Assembly: GCA_002688105.1 (NCBI GenBank)
Contig: NZBQ01000022.1
Coordinates: 1 to 37,004 of the forward strand
DNA: 37,004 nt
Source: Dehalococcoidales bacterium
GTDB taxonomy: Bacteria > Chloroflexota > Dehalococcoidia > Dehalococcoidales > GCA-2688105
Reading direction: 5' to 3'
In this document: positions 1,188-18,232 of the stretch, piece by piece
Numbering within the stretch: the stretch's first letter is position 1
Layout of the letters: each line of letters opens with the position of its first letter
Made by a program: the position numbers and the translations under genes
Notes under the pieces: generated by a model
Databases searched by the model: none
Seen by the model: only the letters and a program-made list of their open reading frames with translations
Told to the model about the DNA's origin: nothing

Positions 1188-4079
1188 CTACCACCTGATT
1201 GGTCTCTGCCAGGCTTCTTTCAATTCACCGAGAGAGGCGGTTATTAACTTCCTGCCGCCCCTACCATATACCTCGAGCACTTCAGAATCGGTAACTTTAC
1301 CAATATCAGCCAGGCTAATGCCAGCCATCACCTCTTCAAACTCGTCCTTGTGCTCTGGTGCTACTTCGACTAGGAACCGAGTATTTGATTCCGAGAAGAG
1401 GATAAAATCATCCCGGTCGATAGGCTCACCCAGAGGAACGGACGACAGGGAAATTGTCGCCCCCAAGCCCCCGGCAAACGCCATCTCGGCAATAGCAACA
1501 CCGAGGCCCCCCTCGCTACAGTCATGACCGGCCCTAACCAGGCGCTTCTCGGTAGCCAGACCCAACCTATCCATCAGCTTTTTCCCCTGGTGCGGGTCCA
1601 CCTTAGGCACACTGTTTCCGGTAAAACCGTGAATCTTCAAATATTCAGACCCCCCCAGCTCGTTCCGGGTAGTGCCCACCAGGTAAATCAGGTCGCCAAC
1701 CTTCTTGAAATCCATGGATACAGCGCGGTTCACATCCTCCATAACACCGATAGACGAGATAAGCAGGGTATGGGGAATAGAGATAGTCTTACCTTTATAT
1801 TCGAACTCATTGTAGAGGCTGTCCTTACCCGAAATAAACGGGGTCTCATAGACAATGGCCATATCGTAACAGGCCTGAGCGGCCCGGACCAGAGCCCCGA
1901 GTATGCCAGGCTGCTGGACATCACCCCAACAAAAATTGTCCAGCAAAGCTACCCTGTTTAGATTGCCCCCAACGGCGATAATCTGCCGCAACGCCTCATC
2001 AATAGCCGACGCCGCCATCCAGTAGGGGTCTATTCCCCCATAATCAGGATTGATGCCGTTGGCGACAATTACCCCCATTTCAGAATCTAAAACCGGTCGG
2101 ATAATGGCGGCATCGCCCGGTCCATCGCTATTGTTACCTACCAGAGGTTTGAGAACACTACCCCCCTGCACCTCATGGTCGTACTGACGTATTACCCATT
2201 CCTTGCTGCATACATTCCATGAGCCGAGAATTTTATGTAAAGCTTCAGCTAAATCCGGTGGTGGGGCAAAGTCAGGCTCCTTATACCGTGGCGGCTTCCA
2301 TACCGCCTCCCTCTCTACCTGAGGCAGACCTTTATGCAAAAACCCCATATCCAGGTCACCGACTAAATTACCCTGATAAAAAAGCTGAAGGCGTTGGTCG
2401 CTGGTAAACTCACCGATGACCGCCGCCTCTACATCTTCGCTGGCAAAAAGGTTCAATAGCTCATCAACACAGTCCGGCGGGGTAGCCAGCACCATCCGTT
2501 CTTGAGATTCAGATACCCATATTTCATCATAGGCAAGCCCGGCATATTTTAGAGGCACTCTATCCATGTCAACCCGCACCCCGGTTTCGGCAGCCATTTC
2601 ACCCACGGCTGAGGAGAGACCACCGCCTCCACAGTCAGTTATCCGACAGTATAGCCCGCGGTCTCTGGCTTGAAGCAGAACATCAATAAGTTTCTTCTCC
2701 ACGATGGGATTGCCAATCTGAACCGAGCTATACGAAGCCTGAGCTGATTCCCCGGTAAGCTGTTCCGAGGCAAAGGTTACCCCGTGTATCCCATCGCGCC
2801 CGGTTCTACCTCCCACCAATACCACTAAATCGCCAGCTTGCTGCTTGCCCCGGCGGGAAAGTTCCTTGGGTAATAGACCCAATGTCCCACAGAAAACAAG
2901 CGGATTTGCCATATACCGTTCATCAAAGAGTATGGCGCCGTTGAGGGTAGGTATCCCCAGACGATTGCCGTAGTCAGCCACACCCGCCCTGACCCCCTTA
3001 AAAATACGCCGCGGATGTAACACCCCGCCAGGCAGCTTTTCATAGGGATAATCAGGGGGACCAAAACAGAATACATCTGTATTCAATATTGGCTTGGCGC
3101 CCAACCCGGTGCCCAGCGGATCGCGCACCACCCCACCTATCCCGGTTGAAGCTCCCCCATAGGGCTCAACCGCCGAGGGATGATTATGGGTCTCAACCTT
3201 AAAACACAGGGCAGAACGACCGTCAAAATCAATCACCCCGGCATTATCCTCAAAGACAGAAAGACACCATGGTTTCCCCAGCTCCTCGGTTACCTTCATA
3301 ATAGTGCTTTTGAGCAGGTTATCAATGGTTGTTCTGCCCAGAGAGATTTTGCCCTTAAATGTTTTGTGGACACAATGCTCAGACCAGGTCTGCGCCAGAG
3401 TCTCAAGCTCAGCATCGGTGGGGTTTCGCTTTTGCTTCTGGAAGTAGCCTATAATAGCCTGAAGCTCGTCATCGCTAAAGCCGAATTGTTGTCTGACTTC
3501 CCGAAGCCCGGCATCGTCTGCTTGCAGAATATCTACCTGCTTCAGCCTGAATCTATACCGGGGATTTTCCGGAAACCAGACCTCTTCCTGTTCAACGACA
3601 TGCTGAATAATCGGGTTTACCAGTAATCGGCTGCATATAGCCTCTAGTTGAGGCTCATCCAGTTGTCCTTCAATAATATATCGTCGGGCGGTTTTAACCG
3701 CCCTTACCCCCTCCACCCCCAGGTCCTGGAGTGCCTTCATGACCGTGCCCTCAACCGGGTCGGCAACACCGGCATTGTAAGCGACCTCGATAGTATGAAA
3801 TTGCTTATTAACCTTATCGGAGGGGGTTTGCCCTTTACGATTCCCCTTGATATCGGTAGGAGAGGTAATAAGCTGATATTCCTGAGTTACCTGGTCAGCC
3901 AGCAGGCTCCGACAAACCAGAGCCAGCCTATCTGGCGTCAAATCTGCGTCCAGCCAGTATATACCCGCCACATGAACACCGGAGACCGTCTTTATACCCA
4001 GGTCGTGTATATCCTTAACCAGACCAAGTCCCCAGGCATCGGGCAGGTGACTCTTCAGACTAACTTCTACCCTGTACAT
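1188..4079 (-). CDS. purL: Phosphoribosylformylglycinamidine synthase PurL with two PurS-like N-terminal domains
   Basis: 963 aa; PurL motifs (TWSEHCVHKTFKG, VETHNHPSAVEPYGGASTGIGGVVRDPLG, SGKDSLYNEF, HDCSEGGLGVAIAEMAF); about 170 N-terminal residues read as tandem PurS-like units. Confidence 0.93.
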   Translation of the reverse strand: MYRVEVSLKSHLPDAWGLGLVKDIHDLGIKTVSGVHVAGIYWLDADLTPDRLALVCRSLLADQVTQEYQLITSPTDIKGNRKGQTPSDKVNKQFHTIEVAYNAGVADPVEGTVMKALQDLGVEGVRAVKTARRYIIEGQLDEPQLEAICSRLLVNPIIQHVVEQEEVWFPENPRYRFRLKQVDILQADDAGLREVRQQFGFSDDELQAIIGYFQKQKRNPTDAELETLAQTWSEHCVHKTFKGKISLGRTTIDNLLKSTIMKVTEELGKPWCLSVFEDNAGVIDFDGRSALCFKVETHNHPSAVEPYGGASTGIGGVVRDPLGTGLGAKPILNTDVFCFGPPDYPYEKLPGGVLHPRRIFKGVRAGVADYGNRLGIPTLNGAILFDERYMANPLVFCGTLGLLPKELSRRGKQQAGDLVVLVGGRTGRDGIHGVTFASEQLTGESAQASYSSVQIGNPIVEKKLIDVLLQARDRGLYCRITDCGGGGLSSAVGEMAAETGVRVDMDRVPLKYAGLAYDEIWVSESQERMVLATPPDCVDELLNLFASEDVEAAVIGEFTSDQRLQLFYQGNLVGDLDMGFLHKGLPQVEREAVWKPPRYKEPDFAPPPDLAEALHKILGSWNVCSKEWVIRQYDHEVQGGSVLKPLVGNNSDGPGDAAIIRPVLDSEMGVIVANGINPDYGGIDPYWMAASAIDEALRQIIAVGGNLNRVALLDNFCWGDVQQPGILGALVRAAQACYDMAIVYETPFISGKDSLYNEFEYKGKTISIPHTLLISSIGVMEDVNRAVSMDFKKVGDLIYLVGTTRNELGGSEYLKIHGFTGNSVPKVDPHQGKKLMDRLGLATEKRLVRAGHDCSEGGLGVAIAEMAFAGGLGATISLSSVPLGEPIDRDDFILFSESNTRFLVEVAPEHKDEFEEVMAGISLADIGKVTDSEVLEVYGRGGRKLITASLGELKEAWQRPIRW

Positions 4080-4219
4080 TACCTGATACCATTATACTGA
4101 GACAAATACGACATTATATCCGAGCCACTTATCAAGGATAGCTTGAAGGAAACAAATAATTAACACCCGCTCACCACAAAAAGAGAGAGAAATCAGGTCA
4201 CCTTATTCTAACCAATTGA

Positions 4220-4678
4220 TTATGAGCCAAGCAATTCGGTTACTACGGCGTTTACTTCCCGCCCATCGGCTTTCCCTTTAAGCTGAGCCATAAGCTGAGG
4301 CATAACCTTTCCCTTATCAGCGGGGCTCTGTGCCCCTACCTCCCTAATCACCCGGCGCGCCTCAGCGATAATCTCTTCTCGAGTTAATTGCTCAGGTTGA
4401 TACCCCTGAAGGATAGCTAACTCCGCTTCTTCCTGAGCCACCAGGTCATGGCGATTTCCCTGCTTGAAGGCCTCAATGCTCTCACGACGCTGCCTAACCT
4501 CTTTGGCGATAACCCCAAGGATACCTCCATCATCCAACTCAGCCTGCCGGTCAATTTCAGCATTCTTAACGGCCGCCATTACCAATCTGATAACGGAACG
4601 TTTTACCTTATCCCCGTCTCTCAATGCCTGCTTAAGGTCATCCGTCAGCTTTTGTTTTAATACTGCTGCCATTTTCAC
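4220..4678 (-). CDS. yqeY: GatB/YqeY domain protein
   Basis: LKQALRDGDKVKRSVIRLVMAAVKNAEID...GNRHDLVAQEEAELAILQGYQPEQL; typical YqeY, beside rpsU. Confidence 0.9.
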   Translation of the reverse strand: MKMAAVLKQKLTDDLKQALRDGDKVKRSVIRLVMAAVKNAEIDRQAELDDGGILGVIAKEVRQRRESIEAFKQGNRHDLVAQEEAELAILQGYQPEQLTREEIIAEARRVIREVGAQSPADKGKVMPQLMAQLKGKADGREVNAVVTELLGS

Positions 4679-6307: not shown

Positions 6308-6597
6308 CTTATTCAGCCATACCATTGTATAACCCCCAGCTTTAGCCGTCAAGGAATAGGGGCGTTTACCCCAGGCAGGACTAGATTTTAACGAAATCTT
6401 AACGCCAGTTTTATGGGCAGTTAATCTTGACAGCCTGTATTGCCCGGTTAGATTTTATCCAGAACATACTTACCTCAGCCTCCAGAGGGCAGCCAGCCAC
6501 GATAACGGCAATACTCTGGTGGTAAATCTAGCTCAATCTCACTCGCCAACTCCGAATCCATAACCTGCCATTCCAACGAACAATACGATATCAATAA

Positions 6598-6642
6598 TAG
6601 TACATATGTTCTAGAACCATCAACAGGATTTTGTCGCCTTTT
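6598..6642. repeat. Dispersed box, copy 1: acatatgttcta...cagg(a)ttttgtcgcctttt
   Basis: Same bipartite string as 10913-10955. Confidence 0.65.
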
Positions 6643-6713: not shown

Positions 6714-6920
6714 ATGGTTCTTTTAGAAAGTTATGTTAATGTGATTGAGGCAGGTCATCGTCTTAAAGTTCATCCGGAAACGGTGAAGCGGTTGTGTCGT
6801 CAGGGAGACCTACCGGCAGTAAAAATACATAATACCTGGCTAATTGATAAGAATATTCTGGATAATTTTGCGGGAACCTATAATCCAAAACGTGGTGCTA
6901 GAAAAAGACTGATAACATAA
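6714..6920 (+). CDS. Small helix-turn-helix DNA-binding protein (excisionase/MerR-like HTH)
   Basis: YVNVIEAGHRLKVHPETVKRLCRQGDLPAVKIHNTWLIDKNILDNFA. Confidence 0.75.
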   Translation: MVLLESYVNVIEAGHRLKVHPETVKRLCRQGDLPAVKIHNTWLIDKNILDNFAGTYNPKRGARKRLIT

Positions 6921-6947
6921 ATAAAGAGTATATAAGGTAGGCTGCCG

Positions 6948-8468
6948 ATGAAAAATATTAAAATACTCGGCATCATAGTTATAGCTAGTATCCTGTCTCT
7001 ACTGGGAGTGGTCATACCCGCCACGCCGGCTCTGGCTCAACCCACCGTTACTCTGTCCCCCACCTCCGGCTCAATAGGCACCAAAGTGACCATCACCGCT
7101 ATAAATTTTGAATCATTTAAAAATACTAATGTCAGCATTTTTTTCAACGGCAAAGAAATCGATAGCAGCCCTAAAACCGTCACTGATACCGGAAGTTTTA
7201 CCGCTGATTTTCATGTGCCGGCTGACACCATGCCCGGAACAGCCCAGGTTATGGTTAGCACTGTAATTGGAGGTCAAGTAACTGCCTCGTTTACCGTCCA
7301 GGGCACCTCAATCTGGTTACAGCCCAGAGATGGTCCGGTAGGCACCATGGTAACCCTTGACGGCAGTGGTTTTTATGCCAGCCAGGTGGTAACCTTCTCC
7401 TATTATCCTGATACTCAAGTTGTGTTAGGCGCCGAAGAGGCTACCTCCACCGGTGAGTTTAGTTACAGCTTTGCCGTCCCGGAGAGTACTGCCGGCAATC
7501 ACCGGGTAGTGGCACAAGATGACTGGGGTGGTTGGGCTGAACTCAATTTCAAGGTAATTCCCACCGTTACCATTGAGCCAGAATCAGGGGCTATTGGCGA
7601 TGAGGTAATAGTCACCGGCACCGGTTTTGGCAACCAGAGCCGGGTCAACATCTACTTCAATGACGATAGGGTGGCAACATCTAAGACAGATAAATACGGC
7701 AGCCTTGAACTCGCCTTTGATATGCCCATAACGGAATCCGGCACCTACGATGTCGAGATAGAGGATAAGGATGGCAATAAAGACACGGCAGAGTTCACCA
7801 TAGCGGCTGGAGCCAACCTCAGCCCGACTACAGGCAATGTGGCCACCACACTTACCGTTAGCGGCGTCGGGTTTAAAGCCGGCGGAACCGTTACCATTAA
7901 GTATGATGATACCCCGGTAGCTACCGCTACGGCTAATGCCAGTGGTGGCTTCTCGCTTAATTTTAAAGCTCCCGTCAGTATTGGTGGAATTCACAGTATA
8001 ATCATCACCGACGGCGATACTACAATAACACAGCTTTTTACTATGGAGTCAACACCACCATCAACCCCAGCACCACTATTACCCGAAGATACCGATAAAA
8101 CTAAGGCAAAGATATACTTTGCCTGGGATGATGTTACTGACCCCAGCGGGGTAACCTATACCTTCCAGATTGCTACCGATAAGGATTTCACTTCTATTGT
8201 GCTGGAGAAGGCAGAGCTGACCTCTTCCAAATACAACATCACCGGGGTAGAGGAGTTACCGCCAACCGTAAAGGAAGCCCCCTACTACTGGCGGGTAAAA
8301 GCCATAGATGGTGCCTTCAATGAAAGCGAGTGGGCAACTGCCAGGTTGTTCTATGTCGTCTCTGCCTCTGGCTTTCCTAACTGGGCTAAAATTACATTGA
8401 TAGTGCTGGGGATACTTGCCGCTGCTTTCCTGGCCTTCTGGATGGGCAGAAGAACCGCTTATCGGTAA
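6948..8468 (+). CDS. Secreted/membrane-anchored surface protein with TIG/IPT-like Ig repeats, FnIII-like domain and C-terminal TM
   Basis: Signal peptide MKNIKILGIIVIASILSLLGVV..ALA; repeated 'P.SG.IGT.VT..G.GF' units; YTFQIATDKDF...YYWRVKAIDGAFNESEWA; C-terminal TM then GRRTAYR. Confidence 0.8.
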   Translation: MKNIKILGIIVIASILSLLGVVIPATPALAQPTVTLSPTSGSIGTKVTITAINFESFKNTNVSIFFNGKEIDSSPKTVTDTGSFTADFHVPADTMPGTAQVMVSTVIGGQVTASFTVQGTSIWLQPRDGPVGTMVTLDGSGFYASQVVTFSYYPDTQVVLGAEEATSTGEFSYSFAVPESTAGNHRVVAQDDWGGWAELNFKVIPTVTIEPESGAIGDEVIVTGTGFGNQSRVNIYFNDDRVATSKTDKYGSLELAFDMPITESGTYDVEIEDKDGNKDTAEFTIAAGANLSPTTGNVATTLTVSGVGFKAGGTVTIKYDDTPVATATANASGGFSLNFKAPVSIGGIHSIIITDGDTTITQLFTMESTPPSTPAPLLPEDTDKTKAKIYFAWDDVTDPSGVTYTFQIATDKDFTSIVLEKAELTSSKYNITGVEELPPTVKEAPYYWRVKAIDGAFNESEWATARLFYVVSASGFPNWAKITLIVLGILAAAFLAFWMGRRTAYR

Positions 8469-8489
8469 AAACTGAGAGTAGATTGATAA

Positions 8490-10097
8490 ATGAAATACAG
8501 CAAAATCTTTCGAATCCTAGTAGCCGCCGCCATAATTTCGTGGCTGGCATTGGTTATACCGACAGCACCGGCAGCGGCTGTCACTTACCTTAGTGTGAGT
8601 CCAACTTCGGGTCGTGCCGGCGATACCGTTACTGTTACCTTAACCGGGCTTAGCGGCACTACGGCTGTGCTAGTCTTTAATGACACCAATCCAAAAACTG
8701 TTAGCATTACCACCTCCTCATACATTACCTCCTACACTATACCTACCAGCGCGACTCCAGGTGGACCAGATGGGACTGGCAACCAGATTAAAGTCATTGA
8801 CCATGCCTGGTGGCTATCTGGTGCCCCGGGGCACATTGAGGCTGTCACTTTCACGGTAATCACTGCCGAGATAACCATAGACCTAGACGAAGGTCCGGTG
8901 GGTACCGAGGTTGAGATTACCGGCACCGATTTTGATGATGGTGAAGATGTTACCATAGACTACGATGGTACCGATATTACTGATGACATAGTTGATGGTG
9001 AGACTTCAACCGATAGCAACGGCGATTTTACCAGCACCATTAGCATCCCGGAGAGCACTACCGGCAGCCATACCATAACCATCACTGGAGCCACTTCGGC
9101 TTACACCGAAACAGCTACCTTTACCGTTGAGTCTGAAGCAAGCCTCAGTCCTACTGAAGGCGGCGCCGGAACCGGGGTAACCGTCAGTGGCACCGGGTTT
9201 AAGACCAGCCAGTCAATAACCATTACCTTTGACGATGAGGAGCTTGATACCACCATTGAAACCGACACCAACGGCAGCTTCAGTGGTGCTTTTACCGTTC
9301 CCACCAAGGCCAAAGGCACCTATGAGGTAGAAATCGGTGACGGCACCAATAGTCATAGTTTCGACTTCGACATCTCAGCAAATGCCAGCCTCGATCTGGC
9401 CACCGGGCATATTGGTACCACGCTTACTATTAGCGGTAACGGATTTGTTGCCAGCGGAACCGTTACTGTTAAATATGGTGATACTTTAATAGCTACCACT
9501 ACGGCTGCTGTAAACGGTGACTTTGAGGTTATCTTTGAAGTCCCCGCCAGTCAATCTGGGGACCACACTATAATCGTCAGTGATAGCATCAACATCAAGC
9601 AATTTACCTTCACCATGGAATCAGAAGCACCACCAATACCGCCGCCACTGTTACCCGAAGATGGCTCAAAAGTTGAGGCGGAGGTATACTTTGACTGGAA
9701 AGATGTCGACGACCCCAGCGAGGTAACTTATACCTTCCAGATTGCTACCGCTAAGGCTTTTACCCCCCCCTCTATAGTGCTGGAGGAAAAGGGTTTAACC
9801 AGTTCGGAATACACCATCACTGAAGAAGAGACGCTGGAACCAGTAGGTGAGGATGAGCCCTACTATTGGCGGGGAAAAGCTATAGATGGTGCCTCCAATG
9901 AGAGCGAATGGACAGTCCCCGACTCATTTCACTTTGGCTCTCAACTTGTATCTCCTGTATCTCCTGTATCTCCTGTATCTCCGACGAAGAAGATAGAAGA
10001 TTGGCTTCTATACACCTTGATAGGTGTTGGGGCATTCCTGTGTGGTCTCCTCGGCTTTTGGATTGGCCGGAGAACCGCCTATTCTTCATATTATTAA
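8490..10097 (+). CDS. Paralogous TIG/IPT-repeat surface protein
   Basis: Same architecture as 6948-8468: signal peptide, TIG-like units, FnIII-like domain, (PVS)n linker, TM, WIGRRTAYSSYY. Confidence 0.8.
   Translation: MKYSKIFRILVAAAIISWLALVIPTAPAAAVTYLSVSPTSGRAGDTVTVTLTGLSGTTAVLVFNDTNPKTVSITTSSYITSYTIPTSATPGGPDGTGNQIKVIDHAWWLSGAPGHIEAVTFTVITAEITIDLDEGPVGTEVEITGTDFDDGEDVTIDYDGTDITDDIVDGETSTDSNGDFTSTISIPESTTGSHTITITGATSAYTETATFTVESEASLSPTEGGAGTGVTVSGTGFKTSQSITITFDDEELDTTIETDTNGSFSGAFTVPTKAKGTYEVEIGDGTNSHSFDFDISANASLDLATGHIGTTLTISGNGFVASGTVTVKYGDTLIATTTAAVNGDFEVIFEVPASQSGDHTIIVSDSINIKQFTFTMESEAPPIPPPLLPEDGSKVEAEVYFDWKDVDDPSEVTYTFQIATAKAFTPPSIVLEEKGLTSSEYTITEEETLEPVGEDEPYYWRGKAIDGASNESEWTVPDSFHFGSQLVSPVSPVSPVSPTKKIEDWLLYTLIGVGAFLCGLLGFWIGRRTAYSSYY
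9948..9982 (+). repeat. 9-bp in-frame tandem repeat (gtatctcct x ~3.9) encoding a Pro-Val-Ser linker
   Basis: Read directly: gtatctcct gtatctcct gtatctcct gtatctcc. Confidence 0.95.
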
Positions 10098-10104
10098 GAT
10101 GTTT

Positions 10105-10153
10105 TGGGGGATTTCCCCCACCCGCGACTCCCTCTCCGTAAAAAGAGAGGGAG
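10105..10153. repeat. Two-hairpin intergenic element, copy C (possible terminator)
   Basis: TGGGGGA-tt-TCCCCCA (10105-10120), then CTCCCTCT-N10-AGAGGGAG (10128-10153). Confidence 0.6.
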
Positions 10154-10182
10154 ATTTGTTTATAATAGGAACGCTACTCATG

Positions 10183-10347
10183 TTAAACTCCCATAGCCCC
10201 CTGTGGTGAGTATCGGCTAGCGGCTTCGACCAGCAATGCCAAGCTCATCAAGAAGTCATCATACCCCTGGGCCGGGTCAACATAGAAATTCATGGTCTGG
10301 CTGGGACGATACTGGCTCTTGGCTTTCTCCAAAACAGGTTTGGCATT
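10183..10347 (-). pseudogene. 3' remnant resembling a phage terminase large-subunit-like C-terminus
   Basis: Minus-strand open frame with no start: ...AKPVLEKAKSQYRPSQTMNFYVDPAQGYDDFLMSLALLVEAASRYSPQGAMGV*; TGA directly upstream. Confidence 0.4.
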
Positions 10348-10594
10348 TCAACCTCCCCATCCACCGGGTGTAAAACTTATCTCCGGGTGGATTGCTGGTC
10401 TCAATTATCTAAGACTATAGCATACCAATTGCAGCTAAGTTTATTACAATACCGCGCTGAACAAACCGCTAAATTGTGACCTTAATCTGTATATAGTCTG
10501 ATCTCTGAGACACTCTAAAAGGGTAGGGTCTTGTTGATATTCAACAAGAGCTGTATAATCGGCATAGCTAAAAGGACTTCATTTCGGAGCAAGC

Positions 10595-10789
10595 TCATAC
10601 TTCCACTAGGGGGTAAGGAGGAATAGGATGCCCATCATCAATACCCTCAACGCCAGTAGCTAGCTCAAAATCAAGCTGCTCTGCCTCATCAAGAACCTTA
10701 GAATAGAAACCATGTTTACGAGCGTTCTGATTTCCTTCTGGGGCGCCTCGTTTTCTTTTCACTTCCGCAGACATACGGCTTATCTCCAC
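10595..10789 (-). pseudogene. Truncated small protein with KRGAPxGNxNAxKHGFYS motif (terminase-small-subunit-like / mobile-element associated)
   Basis: MSAEVKRKRGAPEGNQNARKHGFYSKVLDEAEQLDFELATGVEGIDD then unrelated tail. Confidence 0.5.
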
Positions 10790-10919
10790 TATTCAAGAGC
10801 CTGGCCGTGGCCAGGACAAGGGTATGGGCGGCTAAGTCCCATCTCTGGCTCTCTACGGCTAACCTCAATAGCCTCATAGCCTTCCCCTTTCTACATACAT
10901 CGGTTTCATAAGAGCACAT
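10716..10919 (-). CDS. Small uncharacterized protein overlapping the start of the GAPxGNxNA ORF
   Basis: RLLRLAVESQRWDLAAHTLVLATARLLNSG; 74-nt overlap with 10595-10789 in another frame. Confidence 0.35.
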   Translation of the reverse strand: MCSYETDVCRKGKAMRLLRLAVESQRWDLAAHTLVLATARLLNSGDKPYVCGSEKKTRRPRRKSERS

Positions 10920-10955
10920 ATGTTCTAAGATGGCTATCAGGTTTTGTCGCCTTTT
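10913..10955. repeat. Dispersed box, copy 2: acatatgttcta...caggttttgtcgcctttt
   Basis: Shared with 6598-6642. Confidence 0.65.
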
Positions 10956-10967
10956 GGACCTTTCGCA

Positions 10968-10995
10968 TTGATATTGACGGCATACCCGTTATAAA
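10968..10995 (+). promoter_or_regulatory. Candidate promoter for the zinc-ribbon/RNase H operon: TTGATA-N16-TATAAA
   Basis: Read directly, about 20 nt upstream of ATG 11015. Confidence 0.4.
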
Positions 10996-11014
10996 ATGAG
11001 CCAGGACGGAAAAG

Positions 11015-11710
11015 ATGAGTGTTGCCAAACGACTTAACCAGCTACAGAGGATTGACCTTGAAGTTGAGTCTAAAGAGCAGGCTCTCCAGCAGATTACCAG
11101 CCAGCTCGGAGACAATCAGACAGTGGTCAGGGTTCAAAACAAACTTGCCCTCGAAACCCATAATCTGGAAGAATTGAGGAAGCAGCAGCACTCCGCAGAA
11201 TGGGAGATAGATAGTCTGGAAAGTAAACTCGCCACGGTTGAAAAGGAGCTATACAGTGGCCGGATAGGAAACCCCAAAGAGCTGACCAACCTCCAGCATG
11301 AGGTTGACGGATTGAGAGCCAAACGCAGCCAACTGGAGGATGAAGCACTGGAGATAATGGATAAGGTTGAGTTGACCGAGGCAGGCGTAGCTACACTAAG
11401 TAATGAGCTTAAAACAGTGGAGACGAAGTGGCACCGCCAGCAACAGCAGCTATCAGCCGAGATGAAGGAAATCAAAACCAAGCTGTCTGACCTCAAGCAT
11501 AAGCGGCAGGTGCTGTTAGCCGAAATTGACCCCAAGGCAGTTGAGTTATACCATGAACTCAGCAGACAAAAAAGACAGGCAGTAGCTAAAATAGAGCAGG
11601 GAATATGCGGCAGTTGCCGCATATCGTTACCAATTACTGATTTGCAGCGGGCGAGAAGTGGTGACCTGGTGCAATGTAGCAGTTGTGGGCGTATCTTGTT
11701 CCAGGCTTGA
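11015..11710 (+). CDS. Coiled-coil protein with C4-type zinc ribbon (PF02591-like)
   Basis: Long coiled coil, then CGSCRISLPITDLQRARSGDLVQCSSCGRILF. Confidence 0.88.
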   Translation: MSVAKRLNQLQRIDLEVESKEQALQQITSQLGDNQTVVRVQNKLALETHNLEELRKQQHSAEWEIDSLESKLATVEKELYSGRIGNPKELTNLQHEVDGLRAKRSQLEDEALEIMDKVELTEAGVATLSNELKTVETKWHRQQQQLSAEMKEIKTKLSDLKHKRQVLLAEIDPKAVELYHELSRQKRQAVAKIEQGICGSCRISLPITDLQRARSGDLVQCSSCGRILFQA

Positions 11711-11725
11711 AGCTGCCAAAAAGGG

Positions 11726-12157
11726 GTGAGGTTGATAAATAATCCAGAAAAGATGACGAAGGTAGAGAGAGTGGTAATATGCGCTGACGGTGCCTCACGG
11801 GGCAACCCCGGGCTGGCAGCGATAGGAGCTACCATAAAGGACAGGCAGGGCAGGCTCATTGCCTCCGTCTCTCAATGCATCGGCAGGACGACCAATAACC
11901 AGGCGGAATATAGAGCACTTATCGCTGCCCTAGAAGAAGCCACCAGGCTGGGTGCCAGGGAGGTAGCTATAAATTTAGACTCACAGCTAGTAGTGAGGCA
12001 AATCAGGGGCGAGTACCGGGTGAAAAAAGCCGAGCTTAAACCCCTATACCAACGAGTAAAGCAACTGCAAAGTTGCCTGGAAAGCTGCACCATCAATTAT
12101 ATTCCACGCCAGCAAAACATAGAGGCTGACAGGATGGCAAACAGCGCCTTAAAGTGA
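11726..12157 (+). CDS. Ribonuclease HI family protein
   Basis: CADGASRGNPGLAAIGATI; NNQAEYRALIAALEEA; NLDSQLVVRQIRGEYRVK; ADRMANSALK. Confidence 0.9.
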   Translation: MRLINNPEKMTKVERVVICADGASRGNPGLAAIGATIKDRQGRLIASVSQCIGRTTNNQAEYRALIAALEEATRLGAREVAINLDSQLVVRQIRGEYRVKKAELKPLYQRVKQLQSCLESCTINYIPRQQNIEADRMANSALK

Positions 12158-12210
12158 TTAGTTAGCTACCATTCATAGTTGACTTATATTGTCTTCCATA
12201 CTACAGTATA

Positions 12211-12571
12211 AGTAGGTCAAGTAAACCGGGTGACCGCTCGCTTTAAGCGGGAGGAAAGTCCGAGCTCCACCGGGCAGGATGCTGGGTAACACCCAGGAGG
12301 GGTGACCCTACGGAAAGTGCCACAGAAACATACCGGTCGCCCATGGCGACTAAGGGTGAAATGGTGAGGTAAGAGCTCACCAGCGGCTGGGTGACCAGTC
12401 GGCTGGGCAAACCCCATCCGGAGCAAGACCAAATAGAGGGACTAAAGGGACGCCCGGCCTGTTCCCCGGGTCGGTCGCTTGACCCTGATGGTAACGTCAG
12501 GGCTAGATGGATGGTCACCGCTCCGACTCGTCGGAGTACAGAACTCGGCTTACAGGTTTACTTGACCTGCT
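12211..12571 (+). ncRNA. rnpB: RNase P RNA (bacterial class A-like)
   Basis: Conserved core: gaggaaagtccgagctcc...gggcagg, acagaaacatacc, agggtgaaatggtg, agaactcggcttacag; P1 helix aggtcaagtaaacc (12214-12227) pairs perfectly with ggtttacttgacct (12555-12568). Confidence 0.95.
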
Positions 12572-12769
12572 GCTCTTTTTGAGGCTCATTGCTTGCACGC
12601 TTTTCCAAGCGGTTACTTTTTCAAAATAAACTTTTCATTTCCAGATGGAGGTGAGAAAAGGGAAGTAAAAGTGTAATAATCGGACGGCTTAAGGTCTAAT
12701 CAAGGTTAAAAGCATAGCGCCAACAGCCGTCAACAAGTTTGCCAGCCAACTCAGTGAAGCATATAGTAT

Positions 12770-13036
12770 ATGCTTATGGAAACCCTTAATCCCGTAGCTC
12801 ATGACTTCGTTCTCTATTGCGTTCAACGCCACGGGAAGGAATGGCCAGCTCTCTACGATGAGATGTGTTGGGTAGCTGGGCATCGCTTGTTCAGGGGGCT
12901 GGGCTATGCCGATTTAAGAAAGCTGGGGATATCCCTAAGTCTTACCAATATAGAGGATACTATCAGGATGGTAGATATCGTCACCGCTGAAAAGCATGGG
13001 GCTTATAGCCGTAAAGACACCGATTCTGCCGCCTGA
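12770..13036 (+). CDS. Small conserved hypothetical protein
   Basis: NPVAHDFVLYCVQRHGKEWPALYDEMCWVAGHRLFRGLGYADLRKLGISLSLTNIEDTIRMVD; protein-like composition; start may be the internal ATG (METLNP). Confidence 0.6.
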   Translation: MLMETLNPVAHDFVLYCVQRHGKEWPALYDEMCWVAGHRLFRGLGYADLRKLGISLSLTNIEDTIRMVDIVTAEKHGAYSRKDTDSAA

Positions 13037-13178
13037 ATGAATATTGCACCACCCTGCTTATAAATTTTAGCTTTGTTTAGCAACCCTATCCCCTAGTTAT
13101 CCCTTTCATTCTCAAGCTTTTCTTAATGAAGAATCAATTCAATTTTGCCACCAAACACTTTAAGGGAGAGTAAGTCCG

Positions 13179-14321
13179 ATGTCAAAAACAATAAGAATTA
13201 CGGCGATAGTTCTATTATTAGTGGTGAGCCTTGCCTTTGCTTTTGGAGCTGGCTGTGCTCTAGGTTACAAAACTCCACCAGTCCCAAGGCAGGGTTTTGA
13301 TACCGTGGCTGAGGTATGGAACCTAATCCTCCAAGATTACGTGGACAAGGACAGCCTTGATACCAGCCTCTTGAGCCAAGGAGCCATCAAGGGGATGTTA
13401 GAGGCACTAGATGACCCCTATACCTCATACCTGGATGCTGAAGCCTATCATCTGGCTTCGGGTAACATGGAAGGAAAATTTGAGGGTATTGGTGCTGAGG
13501 TAGCCGTTGAGGACGAGCAGTTAATGATTATCGCTCCTATTGCCAATTCACCAGCGGCTAAGGCAGGTATTAGAGCCGGTGATAAAATCATAGAGGTCGA
13601 TGGCAGGCCTACCTCAGAGATGAGTCTAGCTGAGGCGGTGCTTAACATCCGTGGCCTAAAGGGGTCACCCGTCAAACTCCTCATCCTTCACCAAGGTGAG
13701 AGCGAACCGGTGGAAATTGAGATAATTAGAGCTGAAATTGAAATGTCCAGTGTCAACTATGAGATGAGGGGAGATATCGCTTACATTGGCATTACCCATT
13801 TTTCTCAGCGCACCAATGAGGAGTTATCCCATGCGCTCCAGCTTATAATCGATGAAGCACCTACCGGTATCGTCCTTGACCTGCGCCGTAATCCCGGAGG
13901 TATACTCCAGACAGTGATTGATGTAACCAGCCACTTCTTGGAAGATGGTGTGGTCGGTAATGTAGTGGATAACCAAGGCAATAGTTCGGCTCTCACGGTT
14001 AAATCAACTGGAGTGGTTACTGACCTGCCTTTAGTAGTTCTAGTAAACAGCTATAGTGCCAGCGGCAGTGAGTTATTGGCTGGAGCCCTGCAAGACTATG
14101 CTCGTGCCACCATTGCCGGCACCCAGACCTATGGCAAAGGCAGTGTCAATGTCCTGCGTCAGCTCGGCGATGGTTCAGGGTTACGTATAACCACGGCTCG
14201 CTGGTTTACCCCCAGTGGTCGTCAGATAGAAGGTGAAGGGATAGAGCCTGACTATGAGCTTAAGCTTGAGGGAGAGGCTGCTATCCAATGGGCTATTGAC
14301 TACCTGAAGAGCAATGAATGA
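13179..14321 (+). CDS. S41 family C-terminal processing peptidase with PDZ domain
   Basis: GIGAEVAVEDEQLMIIAPIANSPAAKAGIRAGDKIIEVDG (PDZ); GIVLDLRRNPGG; NSYSASGSELLAGALQDYARATIAGTQTYGKGSVN. Confidence 0.92.
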   Translation: MSKTIRITAIVLLLVVSLAFAFGAGCALGYKTPPVPRQGFDTVAEVWNLILQDYVDKDSLDTSLLSQGAIKGMLEALDDPYTSYLDAEAYHLASGNMEGKFEGIGAEVAVEDEQLMIIAPIANSPAAKAGIRAGDKIIEVDGRPTSEMSLAEAVLNIRGLKGSPVKLLILHQGESEPVEIEIIRAEIEMSSVNYEMRGDIAYIGITHFSQRTNEELSHALQLIIDEAPTGIVLDLRRNPGGILQTVIDVTSHFLEDGVVGNVVDNQGNSSALTVKSTGVVTDLPLVVLVNSYSASGSELLAGALQDYARATIAGTQTYGKGSVNVLRQLGDGSGLRITTARWFTPSGRQIEGEGIEPDYELKLEGEAAIQWAIDYLKSNE

Positions 14322-14332
14322 CAAATAGGTAA

Positions 14333-14431
14333 GCTAATGGAGTCAGGGACAATAACCAGCTCGTATCCAATATAGCCGATTGGCTAGCCGGCCCCGCTGA
14401 GGGGGAAGAAAAGGAAGCGGAAGAGGATTAG
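14333..14431 (+). pseudogene. Isolated 3' gene remnant (...ANGVRDNNQLVSNIADWLAGPAEGEEKEAEED*)
   Basis: Short protein-like frame without start, between ctp-like and zincin genes. Confidence 0.3.
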
Positions 14432-14434
14432 GCT

Positions 14435-14806
14435 ATGGACAGAGAAAAATTTGAGTGGCTGGTAGCGAAGGCAGTGGATAGTCTGCCCGAAGAGTTTCGC
14501 ACCAAACTAGCCAACATCGATGTGGTGGTGGCGGATTGGCCAACTCAAGGTCAATTGGCTGAGGCCGGACTTAAACGCGGTCATACTTTACTGGGTCTTT
14601 ATGAAGGTGTGCCCCTAACCAAACGGGGCAGTCACTACGGATTGGTGCCCCCGGACAAAATAACCATCTTTCAGAAGCCGATTGAGGCTGAGGGCAGACA
14701 TGAGGCCGAGATTATTGCCGAAATACAGAGGGTAGTGAGGCACGAAATAGCCCACCATTTTGGCATTGGGGATGCCCGGCTGAATCAGCTCGAGAAAGGC
14801 ATATAA
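14435..14806 (+). CDS. Zincin-like metallopeptidase family protein (PF06262-like)
   Basis: RHEAEIIAEIQRVVRHEIAHHFGIGDARL: HExxH zinc motif. Confidence 0.85.
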   Translation: MDREKFEWLVAKAVDSLPEEFRTKLANIDVVVADWPTQGQLAEAGLKRGHTLLGLYEGVPLTKRGSHYGLVPPDKITIFQKPIEAEGRHEAEIIAEIQRVVRHEIAHHFGIGDARLNQLEKGI

Positions 14807-14815
14807 AATCATGGG

Positions 14816-16195
14816 CTAAAGATTCTTAACCATATAGTTTCCCTGCAAGCTGTAGTCAAACTCGGAACGATAGTATTCTCTGGCGCCAACCCCACTCAAA
14901 ACAACCATCAGCTTCACCTGAAACTCATTAGCCGCAATTCGCTCAGCTTCCCTCAATAGTGCCTTGCCCAGACCTTTATGCTGGGCTGCCTCTTCCTTCT
15001 GCTCACTGAGAGGAACTTCAGGACCATATATGTGTAACTCACGTATAATGGCTAAATTTCCTTTAACCTCCCGGCTCAGCTTATCTATGGGCTTAGATTG
15101 AATCCTCATCCGCAGCAAGCCAAATAACGTCTCATTTTCATCCTCAAAGGATAGAAAAACCTCTCTACCCCCTGAAGCCTCATAATCCATTCTTACCAGT
15201 CGGGGTTCGCCTGTTTCCCAGCCATCCTGCACCCGGTGACCATACTCCCGGCACCTGATACACTTACATTCAATAGCCAGCTGTTTCATTCGCTCTCTGA
15301 CCACCTCCCGTATTGATTCCTTCAAACCACCCGTAATAAACTTGGCCGGGATATCACGCAGCAGTCTTGAAATTCTGACATACTTGGGCACCATCGACTT
15401 AATCTTAACCAGCAGATCAATCATCGTGTCCGGAGGGTATGGCTGATAGCGCCCGTCTTGATACCATCTCTCCAGCTCGGTGCCCTCCACCACCATAGTG
15501 GGATATAGCTTCAAGCCATCCGGTTTAAAACGAGCATCGTTAAATAGCCTCGCCGAGAGCTCCAAGTCCTTTTCCGGAGTTGAACCGGGTAGCCCTGGCA
15601 TCCAGTGGTAGTGTACCTTGAAGCCATGCTCTCTGAGCAATGCGGTAGCTTGAACCACATCCTCTACCTTATGCCCTCTTCTTACCAGTCGGTAGATTTC
15701 GTCGTCCAAGGTCTGAACCCCAAGCTCTACCCTGGTGGTGCCAAACTCGAGCATCCGGTCAATCTCCTCCTGCCCGCACCAATCGGGCCTAGTCTCTATG
15801 CATAGTCCGGTGCCGCGGTGGGAAGCCGTTTCGTTTAGCTTCTTCGCCTCTTCCAGCGTAGCCGACTCCTCACCATTCAGGGCATCATAGCAACTTTTAA
15901 TAAACCGGTATTGATACTCCTGAGGATAGGCGAGGAAGGTGCCTCCCATCACTATCAACTCAACCTTATCGGTAGGGTGACCCATCTCGGATAGAATCTC
16001 TAGTCTGAGTTTAACCTGCCTCTCAGCATTATAATCACACTTTATACCACGCAGCACTGCTGGCGACTCAGGGGTATAGCTCTGGGGTGCAGTCTGGTAG
16101 GTAGGGCAATAGATGCACTGTCCCGGACAATCCATCTGCTGGGTCATCACCGCTACCGGGGTAACCCCGGATATTGTCCTTGTGAATTTTTTCAT
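14816..16195 (-). CDS. elp3: Elp3-family tRNA uridine(34) acetyltransferase/radical SAM enzyme
   Basis: Radical SAM CPGQCIYCPTYQ; ELGVQTLDDEIYRLVRRGHKVEDV; KVHYHWMPGLPGSTPEKDLE; C-terminal GNAT (QHKGLGKALLREAERIA...VLSGVGAREYYRSEFDY). Confidence 0.93.
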   Translation of the reverse strand: MKKFTRTISGVTPVAVMTQQMDCPGQCIYCPTYQTAPQSYTPESPAVLRGIKCDYNAERQVKLRLEILSEMGHPTDKVELIVMGGTFLAYPQEYQYRFIKSCYDALNGEESATLEEAKKLNETASHRGTGLCIETRPDWCGQEEIDRMLEFGTTRVELGVQTLDDEIYRLVRRGHKVEDVVQATALLREHGFKVHYHWMPGLPGSTPEKDLELSARLFNDARFKPDGLKLYPTMVVEGTELERWYQDGRYQPYPPDTMIDLLVKIKSMVPKYVRISRLLRDIPAKFITGGLKESIREVVRERMKQLAIECKCIRCREYGHRVQDGWETGEPRLVRMDYEASGGREVFLSFEDENETLFGLLRMRIQSKPIDKLSREVKGNLAIIRELHIYGPEVPLSEQKEEAAQHKGLGKALLREAERIAANEFQVKLMVVLSGVGAREYYRSEFDYSLQGNYMVKNL

Positions 16196-16281
16196 AGTAT
16201 ACTCCCCTTAGGATCATAGCCAGTTTAGCAGATTTTGGCTAGTGGCAACAGTGAAAATTGCTTTGAGATAATACGAGGGGA

Positions 16282-16347
16282 GTCCAAGAGGGGAGCGAAG
16301 CCCCCTCTTTAAGAAATTCCTCCCCCTCTCCTTTGAAGGAGATAGGG
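16282..16347 (+). repeat. Two-hairpin intergenic element, copy A
   Basis: AAGAGGGG-agcgaagc-CCCCTCTT (16286-16309), spacer, CCC(CC)TCTCCTTtgAAGGAGataGGG (about 16324-16347). Confidence 0.65.
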
Positions 16348-16361
16348 ATATAGGGGGTAAG

Positions 16362-17018
16362 GTGGCTACCGATTCAAAAGACATCTTTAATCAGATAGCT
16401 CCAGGCTGGTATAGCTTCAGGCACTGGTCTATATTCCGCAGCGAACTGGAGATGCTGGCACAGCGGTGGCAAAAGGGCCGGCTGCTTAATATCGGCTGTG
16501 CCCACGGTCCCGATTTCCTACCCTTTACCCAGATCTTTGACCTGTATGGCGTGGATTTTTCCACCGAGATGCTAAAATTGGCTCGAAAATACTCACAAAA
16601 GTTTAAATTCCCCGTTAGCCTATCGGTGTCTGATGTCAGCCACCTCCCCTATGCTGATGAGACCTTTGACTGGGCAATCTCAGTAGCTACCTACCACCAT
16701 ATCAAGGGCAAGAAGGAGAAGCAGGTTGCCCTGAGCGAGCTGAGACGAGTATTAAAACCAGGGGGTGAAGCCTTTATCACCGTGTGGAACCGATGCCAAC
16801 CCAGGTTCTGGTTTAAGCCGAAAGAGGTAGCCGTGACGTGGCGAAAACGGGATAAGACCCTAGAGCGCTACTACTACCTGTTCTCCTACCCGGAGCTGGA
16901 GAAATTGGTAAAGAAGGCTGGCTTTGAGGTGCTCAAATCCTTCCCCGAAAGCTCCTACCGCCTACCGATAAAATTTTTTTCAAAGAATATATGTCTTCTG
17001 GTGAGGAAGGGTGGTTAG
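16362..17018 (+). CDS. Class I SAM-dependent methyltransferase, Trm9/ALKBH8-MT-like
   Basis: FNQIAPGWYSFRHW; LLNIGCAHGPDFLPF; YGVDFSTEMLKLA; LPYADETFDWAISVATYHHIKGKKEKQVALSELRRVLKPGGEAFITVWN, resembling Trm9 'ETFDFAISIAVVHHWST..RR...GG.ALIYCWA'. Confidence 0.8.
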   Translation: MATDSKDIFNQIAPGWYSFRHWSIFRSELEMLAQRWQKGRLLNIGCAHGPDFLPFTQIFDLYGVDFSTEMLKLARKYSQKFKFPVSLSVSDVSHLPYADETFDWAISVATYHHIKGKKEKQVALSELRRVLKPGGEAFITVWNRCQPRFWFKPKEVAVTWRKRDKTLERYYYLFSYPELEKLVKKAGFEVLKSFPESSYRLPIKFFSKNICLLVRKGG

Positions 17019-17102
17019 AATGAAATGGGGTCTCTAGTTTCTTTATGAACCTCGCCCCCTTTAGATTTTTATCAGGTAACCCTATCCCCTTTATCCCCTT
17101 GC

Positions 17103-17290
17103 GGAATAGATAATCCGACCCATATTATACCATTCTTAACTGAGCTAGATGTCAAACCCAAACAGCTCCGAGCGCTGAGGTCATTATTAGAATTGGTTTG
17201 GCAATTGTACGTTATGGTAAAGGTGTTAACTTACACCACGTAGAACAACTATTGAATTCTGCAGGGTATTCTTTAAAGATGAAATATTAG
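17103..17290 (+). pseudogene. Decayed gene 3' end split by an apparent frameshift
   Basis: Frame 1: CGIDNPTHIIPFLTELDVKPKQLRALRSLLELVWQLYV; frame 2: VRYGKGVNLHHVEQLLNSAGYSLKMKY*; together they read like one protein. Confidence 0.35.
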
Positions 17291-17363
17291 AAAATCCTAC
17301 ATTTTTTATCGCTATTCTCTATGCCTAGCCATCAAGTGTGAAATCTGGCGGGCCTTTTTATAT

Positions 17364-17465
17364 GTGGATTCAGCAACGACGAAGTTGATAGAACATGAGC
17401 GGGAAGAGTATAATCACAATCGACCATCAGCACCTAAAGCTAAATTGACTTCAACCCTAACATAA
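17364..17465 (+). pseudogene. Remnant of an IS3/IS481-type transposase C-terminus
   Basis: VDSATTKLIEHEREEYNHNRPSAPKAKLTSTLT*, resembling ...W..EYN..RPHSSLGYRPPAPEAKLT with the HSSLGYRP block missing. Confidence 0.45.
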
Positions 17466-17510
17466 GAAGTGACATCATTTTTAGGGACATGCCAGGGGGA
17501 TGCAAATAAT

Positions 17511-18041
17511 ATGACCGGACAAATCTCCGATACAATTATCTACAAGGGGGAAAACTACGACCTGATTGGTATTAAAGGTGAACTGATTTCACCTAAGAAG
17601 TTTGGAATGAGTACGAAGGTGTATTCTACTGGCTGCTGGCGTGGGTTCTACGCTACCTATGAAATTACTGAAGCAGGACTCCGTCTCCGAACGTTAACAC
17701 TTAGCGAAAAGGATAACAAATACCAGCCAATAAACAATATTCGGCCTGAAAAGGGAACATGGGGTGAAGCAACCTATAACAACTTGGATGTTAATGTCCC
17801 CTTTAGCGGAACAATCCGATTGGCCAAAGATTTTATTTGGGAACTCTATATACATATGGGTTACCAAAAACCAACAGCATTCAAGACAGTCTATGAAATA
17901 ACTCTTGAAGACGGCAGAGTCGTAAAATTACAGGATAAGTCGAAAGAAATGGAGGAGAAACGCGGAGCCTTTAAGAAGGCCTACGAAACAGATGGAAGAA
18001 CTATAGCTGACGCATTCAGCCTCAATATGGAACTAGAATAG
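17511..18041 (+). CDS. Conserved hypothetical protein
   Basis: MTGQISDTIIYKGENYDLIGIKGELISPKKFGMSTKVYSTGCWRGFYATYEI...; ATG 17511 preferred over upstream GTG 17469. Confidence 0.65.
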   Translation: MTGQISDTIIYKGENYDLIGIKGELISPKKFGMSTKVYSTGCWRGFYATYEITEAGLRLRTLTLSEKDNKYQPINNIRPEKGTWGEATYNNLDVNVPFSGTIRLAKDFIWELYIHMGYQKPTAFKTVYEITLEDGRVVKLQDKSKEMEEKRGAFKKAYETDGRTIADAFSLNMELE

Positions 18042-18166: not shown

Positions 18167-18232
18167 TTAGTTCCCCTTCCCCTTGATAAGGGGAAGGGGA
18201 ACTAATTATACAAGGGAGGCTCCGCCTCCCTT
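18167..18232 (-). repeat. Two-hairpin intergenic element, copy B (inverted)
   Basis: Perfect 18-bp stem TTAGTTCCCCTTCCCCTT-gat-AAGGGGAAGGGGAACTAA (18167-18205), plus 9-bp AAGGGAGGC-tcc-GCCTCCCTT (18212-18232). Confidence 0.8.

Follow-up and report, generated by a model that had tools for sequence, protein, structure and literature searches.

What kind of element left a broken terminase cassette on the minus strand of a Dehalococcoidales contig: a compact mobile module, an old prophage or something that belonged to the host? The window analysed here is the whole stretch of 37,004 nt from a Dehalococcoidales bacterium (assembly GCA_002688105.1, contig NZBQ01000022.1, positions 1 to 37,004, forward strand). 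A first-pass annotation of the window had described the region 10955-10183 as a decayed phage-type terminase cassette, and this description holds: along the minus strand a promoter box comes first and a conserved small ORF second, followed by the start of the gene for a terminase small subunit (TerS) and by the end of that for a large subunit (TerL), which together we refer to as operon A (Table 1). The box sequence AGAACATATGTGCTCT lies at 10926-10911 (-). The small ORF overlaps the TerS start, and the 74-nt overlap of the two reading frames noted earlier is confirmed. TerS residues 1-47 are encoded at 10774-10634, with 94% identity to locus L085 (E 1e-25) and a match to PHROG terminase small subunits (7e-6); the similarity ends at residue 47, the break after VEGIDD that had already been observed. 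The C-terminal fragment was correctly assigned to a terminase large subunit: it corresponds to TerL residues 425-472 of 477 (10332-10189, 88% identity to L084, E 1.5e-21). The distance from the TerS start to the TerL C-terminus is ~0.5 kb in the window and mostly 1.6-1.9 kb in relatives, so about 1.1 kb is missing from operon A. The ~300 nt between the two remnants show no similarity to any related locus compared.

Table 1. Features of the two operon remnants and of their surroundings in the window
Feature	Position	Strand	Remark
Operon A promoter box	10908..10948	-	consensus over 38 related loci
Operon A box, GACAAAA element	10948-10942	-
Operon A box, LexA-type site GAACATATGTGC	10925-10914	-
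Operon A box, -10-like TCTTAT	10913-10908	-
Small ORF MRLLRLAVESQRWDLAAH..	ATG 10877 to stop 10716	-	same ORF precedes TerS in dozens of related loci
TerS remnant ORF, GTG start	10595..10789	-	residues 1-47, then unrelated codons until stop
Internal-deletion junction	10333..10633	-	~1.1 kb lost
TerL remnant, last 48 residues	10183..10332	-	nuclease motif III + C-terminus
Operon B promoter box	6594..6635	-
Operon B box, GACAAAA element	6635-6629	-
Operon B box, -35-like TTGATG	6623-6618	-
Operon B box, LexA-type site GAACATATGTAC	6611-6600	-
Operon B box, -10 TATTAT	6599-6594	-
Operon B HTH remnant MDSELASEIELDLPPEYCRYR..	6475..6561	-	similarity to intact HTH proteins stops at 6499
Operon B hub remnant	6420..6509	-	residues 102-131 of ~670, 60% identical, E 1.2e-4
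CT398-like zinc-ribbon gene	11015-11710	+	divergent neighbour of operon A, relatives too
RNase H-like gene	11726-12157	+	divergent neighbour of operon A, relatives too
HTH_17 gene between operons	6714-6920	+	same position in relatives
Two Ig/TIG surface proteins between operons	6948-8468, 8490-10097	+	same position in relatives
YqeY	4220-4678	-	far flank; also beyond operon B in L213
PurL-type gene	1188-4079	-	far flank; also beyond operon B in L213

The cassette had been thought to lack other phage genes, which turns out to be wrong. A second copy of the box, with 2 mismatches, lies at 6612-6597 (-) and is followed by the remnants of an HTH gene and a hub gene, here called operon B. The window contains 3 box matches where 0.21 are expected, and in the whole assembly only two sites fit TTAGAACATATGTGCT at <=2 mismatches, namely the boxes of operons A and B. 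Within the HTH remnant (6561-6499), 21-32 residues match the HTH protein of intact relatives (E 2e-4); the hub remnant is in another reading frame, and the start of the HTH gene is joined to this scrap of the hub. Internal deletions have taken part of operon A and left almost nothing of operon B, and the locus is therefore unable to make a particle: it is almost certainly a dead, decayed copy, a pseudogene remnant and not a gene transfer agent (GTA). In the genome to which the window belongs, the capsid gene was not found and TerL is present only as the 48-codon remnant. Another species of the genus (G001) has no TerS match, and the CT398 gene was not found in its assembly.

Intact copies elsewhere had been anticipated, and they exist: all three peptides have homologues that cluster in the order seen in the window. 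A search with the TerS piece retrieved 80 loci from genome contigs, mostly labelled Dehalococcoidia or Chloroflexi, and 80 loci from IMG/VR. The order of the intact operon A (box, small ORF, TerS, TerL) recurs in dozens of related loci. The intact operon B comprises the box, the HTH gene and genes for a portal, a scaffold, an HK97 capsid, accessory proteins, an adaptor, a hub of ~670 residues and an OB spike of ~70 residues. The structural and packaging genes descend from tailed phages, as Pfam and PHROG matches show, with PHROG matches for TerL and TerS: the portal is of the SPP1 type (PF05133, 2e-26), the major capsid protein is of the HK97 type (major head protein phrog_212, 1e-69), and the HTH protein has a distant match to a phage late activator. 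In TerL, the Walker A, Walker B and nuclease residues hardly vary across 43 chromosomal and 21 phage rows. The ~70-residue protein is confidently predicted as a five-strand barrel (pLDDT 91); the Mu baseplate and P2 gpV are among its top PDB hits, none of which has an E-value <0.001, and generic OB folds rank equally. The model of the ~670-residue protein (mean pLDDT 69) matches Mu gp44 and injection-system hubs, but also lectin propellers, and from the sequence and strand pattern we read its C-terminal half as the hub and its N-terminal half as a lectin propeller. In PHROG and Pfam scans of selected proteins and in ORF maps, neither the chromosomal sets nor their phage relatives showed a recognisable tail tube or tape measure, and no lysis gene was recognised in the chromosomal sets.

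We interpret the boxes of both operons as LexA/SOS-type promoters, with predicted binding of LexA. Of 59 chromosomal loci, 38 have the pattern GAACN4GTNCTA at most 350 nt upstream of TerS, as against 2 of 36 IMG/VR loci, with a background of 0.4% in random windows from the same chromosomal loci. A box scan covered 19 genomes, in which 20 matches were read and the genes were named by eye from sequence. Six loci, including one from the genus of the window, have the box immediately before lexA, and it also precedes uvrA, imuB-type genes, dinB and an sbcC-like gene; these 20 sites were selected for matching, so that they identify the motif and say nothing on the completeness of a regulon. The lexA and repair genes have GAACN4GTTC-type sites, and a closely similar sequence, GAACATNTGTGC/AC, stands in the phage operons; the pattern used found no lexA site in the window's own genome. 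In operon B promoters the LexA-type site is placed between a TTGAC -35 and the -10, and the promoters checked have a GACAAA-like element 24-25 nt upstream of it. None of six lexA promoters has such an element at that position, and GACAAAA may be the site of an activator.

The chromosomal site is shared as well. Three stretches of neighbouring genes (11015-14321, 6714-10097 and 1188-4678) are common to the window and relatives from the same order, and similar flanks occur in other families of the order (L194+L213, L023, L030, L039). The layout in these relatives has the RNase H-like and CT398 genes on one side, the Ig/TIG and HTH_17 genes between the operons, and YqeY and PurL beyond. The excisionase-like HTH_17 gene recurs beside operon B (window 6714-6920 (+); L194 12955-13182, reverse-complemented; L023 9302-9505) and could either have a regulatory role or be left over from a phage. 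The two Ig/TIG genes of the window (6948-8468 and 8490-10097) form a diverged tandem, with a repeat D1 of 77% identity over 155 nt. Farther away, at 18167-18205, the window has perfectly inverted 18-nt arms around a 3-nt loop, which may be a terminator.

These data bear on the proposal that the box, small ORF, TerS and TerL make up a compact stand-alone mobile module with its own ends. Operon A is often found apart from operon B, with unrelated genes between, as such a module would be. However, CT398 adjoins the locus in 32 of 59 chromosomal loci, no recombinase, element ends or target-site duplications were found, and no direct repeat >11 nt is present within 10100-11020, a result that also speaks against an integrated prophage. 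The box was considered as an element end and rejected: it is a promoter whose LexA-type site is common to lexA and uvrA. We regard a mobile module as very improbable; operon A appears instead as one of two co-regulated operons at a conserved site with mostly vertical inheritance.

A more serious alternative is that of ordinary cryptic prophages, which would have inserted repeatedly near the same site and decayed unequally, the window holding one old remnant. Free phages with the same virion set do exist. The best-covered IMG/VR contigs encode TerS, TerL, portal, scaffold, capsid, adaptor, hub and OB spike, and several carry integrase-like genes; a hub search in viral contigs returned 2 loci at first and 80 with an alignment-based query. 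Chromosomal and phage copies also interleave in trees: 2 label changes are needed for TerL, 4 for the portal and 5 for the capsid (~17 in shuffles), with the phages partly nested. A single clean domestication with phages as the outgroup is unsupported by these interleaved labels, and the interleaving suggests repeated capture from, or exchange with, phages. The chromosomal set resembles what would be left of a small phage lineage if only its structural module were kept, with no integration and replication functions. Many genomes are without the genes, as would also be expected of prophages: the capsid was found in 127 and TerL in 167 of 294 sampled Dehalococcoidia genomes. Against this reading, the carriers span dozens of families and usually have one copy each, next to the same neighbours across families. 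No integrase or replication gene was seen by eye in ORF maps of the intact cluster regions read, and the integrases present elsewhere in these genomes lie outside the cluster, where helper genes may also be encoded. The host-type LexA promoter, found at most chromosomal copies, is nearly absent from the IMG/VR ones.

Phylogeny and selection also speak against independent prophages. A tree built from the joined sequences of capsid, TerL, portal, adaptor and hub has 13 of 22 splits in common with RpoB (permutation mean 0.2, maximum 2), and single-gene trees have 8/26, 10/25 and 14/22 in common, with Mantel r of 0.41-0.80 for single genes. Several other splits contradict RpoB, and the cluster tree gives good support to some of these. 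The gene set thus appears to have been inherited mostly vertically and to have co-diversified with its hosts. Values of dN/dS are low in all genes—0.05-0.18 over nine genes between G264 and G230 (YqeY 0.11) and 0.07-0.32 between G190 and G084, all approximate with dS near saturation—and point to maintenance by purifying selection. All or most of the set was recovered in 31 genomes, contiguous or split between places, and several complete single-contig genomes of the order carry it. Relatives of the capsid occur in 17 genomes of other Chloroflexota classes (44-53% identical, nearly all single-copy; G341-G610). Taken with the promoter and the shared site, phylogeny and selection make the prophage reading unlikely.

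Some of the IMG/VR contigs deserve a separate remark: the short contigs L084-L086, L264 and L352-L429 resemble pieces of chromosomal loci, some with the box and the HTH gene. IMG/VR probably contains misfiled host loci, a warning that such loci are partly filed as viruses.

We consider it probable that the window holds a decayed copy of a host-owned, LexA-controlled, GTA-like system of Dehalococcoidia, and that the lineage of the window has probably lost the gene-transfer particle. The comparison of sequences supports this through gene content, gene order, site, promoter, TerL residues, selection, the mostly host-congruent phylogeny and the decay in the window. A GTA function is the best-supported reading of the intact form, for which we infer that LexA binds the promoters, that the HTH protein activates, that particles form and that these package host DNA and transfer genes. 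LexA would repress both operons at the site between -35 and -10; DNA damage would lift the repression, and a factor, perhaps the HTH protein of operon B, would bind GACAAAA. With TerS and TerL as the packaging proteins, host DNA would pass the SPP1-type portal and fill HK97-type heads that had been assembled on the scaffold, while the adaptor, the hub with its lectin-like propeller and the OB spike would close the head and contact recipient cells. Points against a GTA are the interleaving of phage and chromosomal copies, the splits that contradict RpoB, and the fact that no lysis gene or tail tube was recognised to account for release and delivery.

The same two absences would suit a domesticated particle with a use other than transfer, such as a DNA-filled or empty capsid directed at competitors, or a packaging motor for DNA handling, and the lectin-like propeller of the hub would also fit. 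A further point in its favour comes from single-contig genomes of one genus (L201, L202, L203), which looks like Dehalococcoides: the box, TerS and TerL have stayed at the shared site, operon B is either missing or inverted, with a deletion that joins the portal to the hub, and no capsid gene was found. TerS and TerL in L201-L203 have a dN/dS of about 0.02-0.13, indicative of purifying selection, which suggests that these Dehalococcoides-like genomes possibly retain them for another reason. On the other hand, many genomes keep the full chain of terminase, portal, capsid, adaptor, hub and spike, as packaging and delivery require, and the catalytic residues of TerL are conserved. A use other than transfer strikes us as quite improbable for the system as a whole. 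For the GTA-like system, we lean slightly towards a class-wide and possibly phylum-wide GTA of Chloroflexota that would be of a new kind: a minimal particle of capsid, portal, adaptor, lectin-propeller hub and OB spike without a tail tube, with chromosomal operons that are dispersed in some lineages and under direct control of LexA, by which damage would trigger the sharing of DNA, and which was lost in some small-genome lineages, that of the window among them.

GTA families with an established genetic basis have been formally proposed only for Alphaproteobacteria and Brachyspira (PMC9662315). The RcGTA-type elements (Rhodogtaviriformidae) and the Caulobacter GTA resemble the Dehalococcoidia set in having phage-derived head and packaging genes that are host-owned, lie at several loci, are inherited vertically over a wide clade, are kept by selection and answer to host regulators; the Caulobacter GTA is repressed by the LexA-like protein RogA (PMC9662315, PMC9632790). 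Compared by description, the Dehalococcoidia set differs from both in its phylum, its SPP1-type portal, the lack of a recognised tail tube or tape measure and an ordinary LexA/SOS-type site in place of that of a dedicated regulator, and transfer is here a prediction. BhGTA/VSH-1 of Brachyspira (Brachygtaviriformidae) is similar in its single-copy terL apart from the structural cluster and in its co-diversification with the host, but its particles possess a tail of 65 nm, and an endolysin gene is present (PMC9662315); in the Dehalococcoidia set no tail tube and no lysis gene were recognised. Small temperate phages from IMG/VR (L346, L342, L348) have the same virion set; they differ in that several possess integrase-like and other genes, the HTH gene between TerL and portal is missing and nearly all are without the LexA-type box.

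In the open literature, subscription journals being largely outside the search, no published account of a GTA from Dehalococcoidia or Chloroflexota came to light. Dehalococcoidia include organohalide respirers with mobile dehalogenase genes. If the proposed reading is true, a usually single-copy, mostly vertical, SOS-driven GTA would extend such systems to another phylum and link them directly to DNA damage as a trigger. The question of why bacteria keep GTAs would then become testable, since the set is present in several complete single-contig genomes of the order.

Two further observations concern the relatives. In L285 (G192:C23, reverse-complemented, 8510-9409 and 12435-16612), the capsid gene is located near imuB-like and dnaE2-like genes. 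In two genomes of one genus, at L244 (G264:C14) and L263 (G230:C49), a third box controls a pair of small genes, MWKIDRG.. and MTNKYHSD.., with look-alikes at 16696-18008 in the free phage L345; this pair may belong to the same particle as one more dispersed operon.
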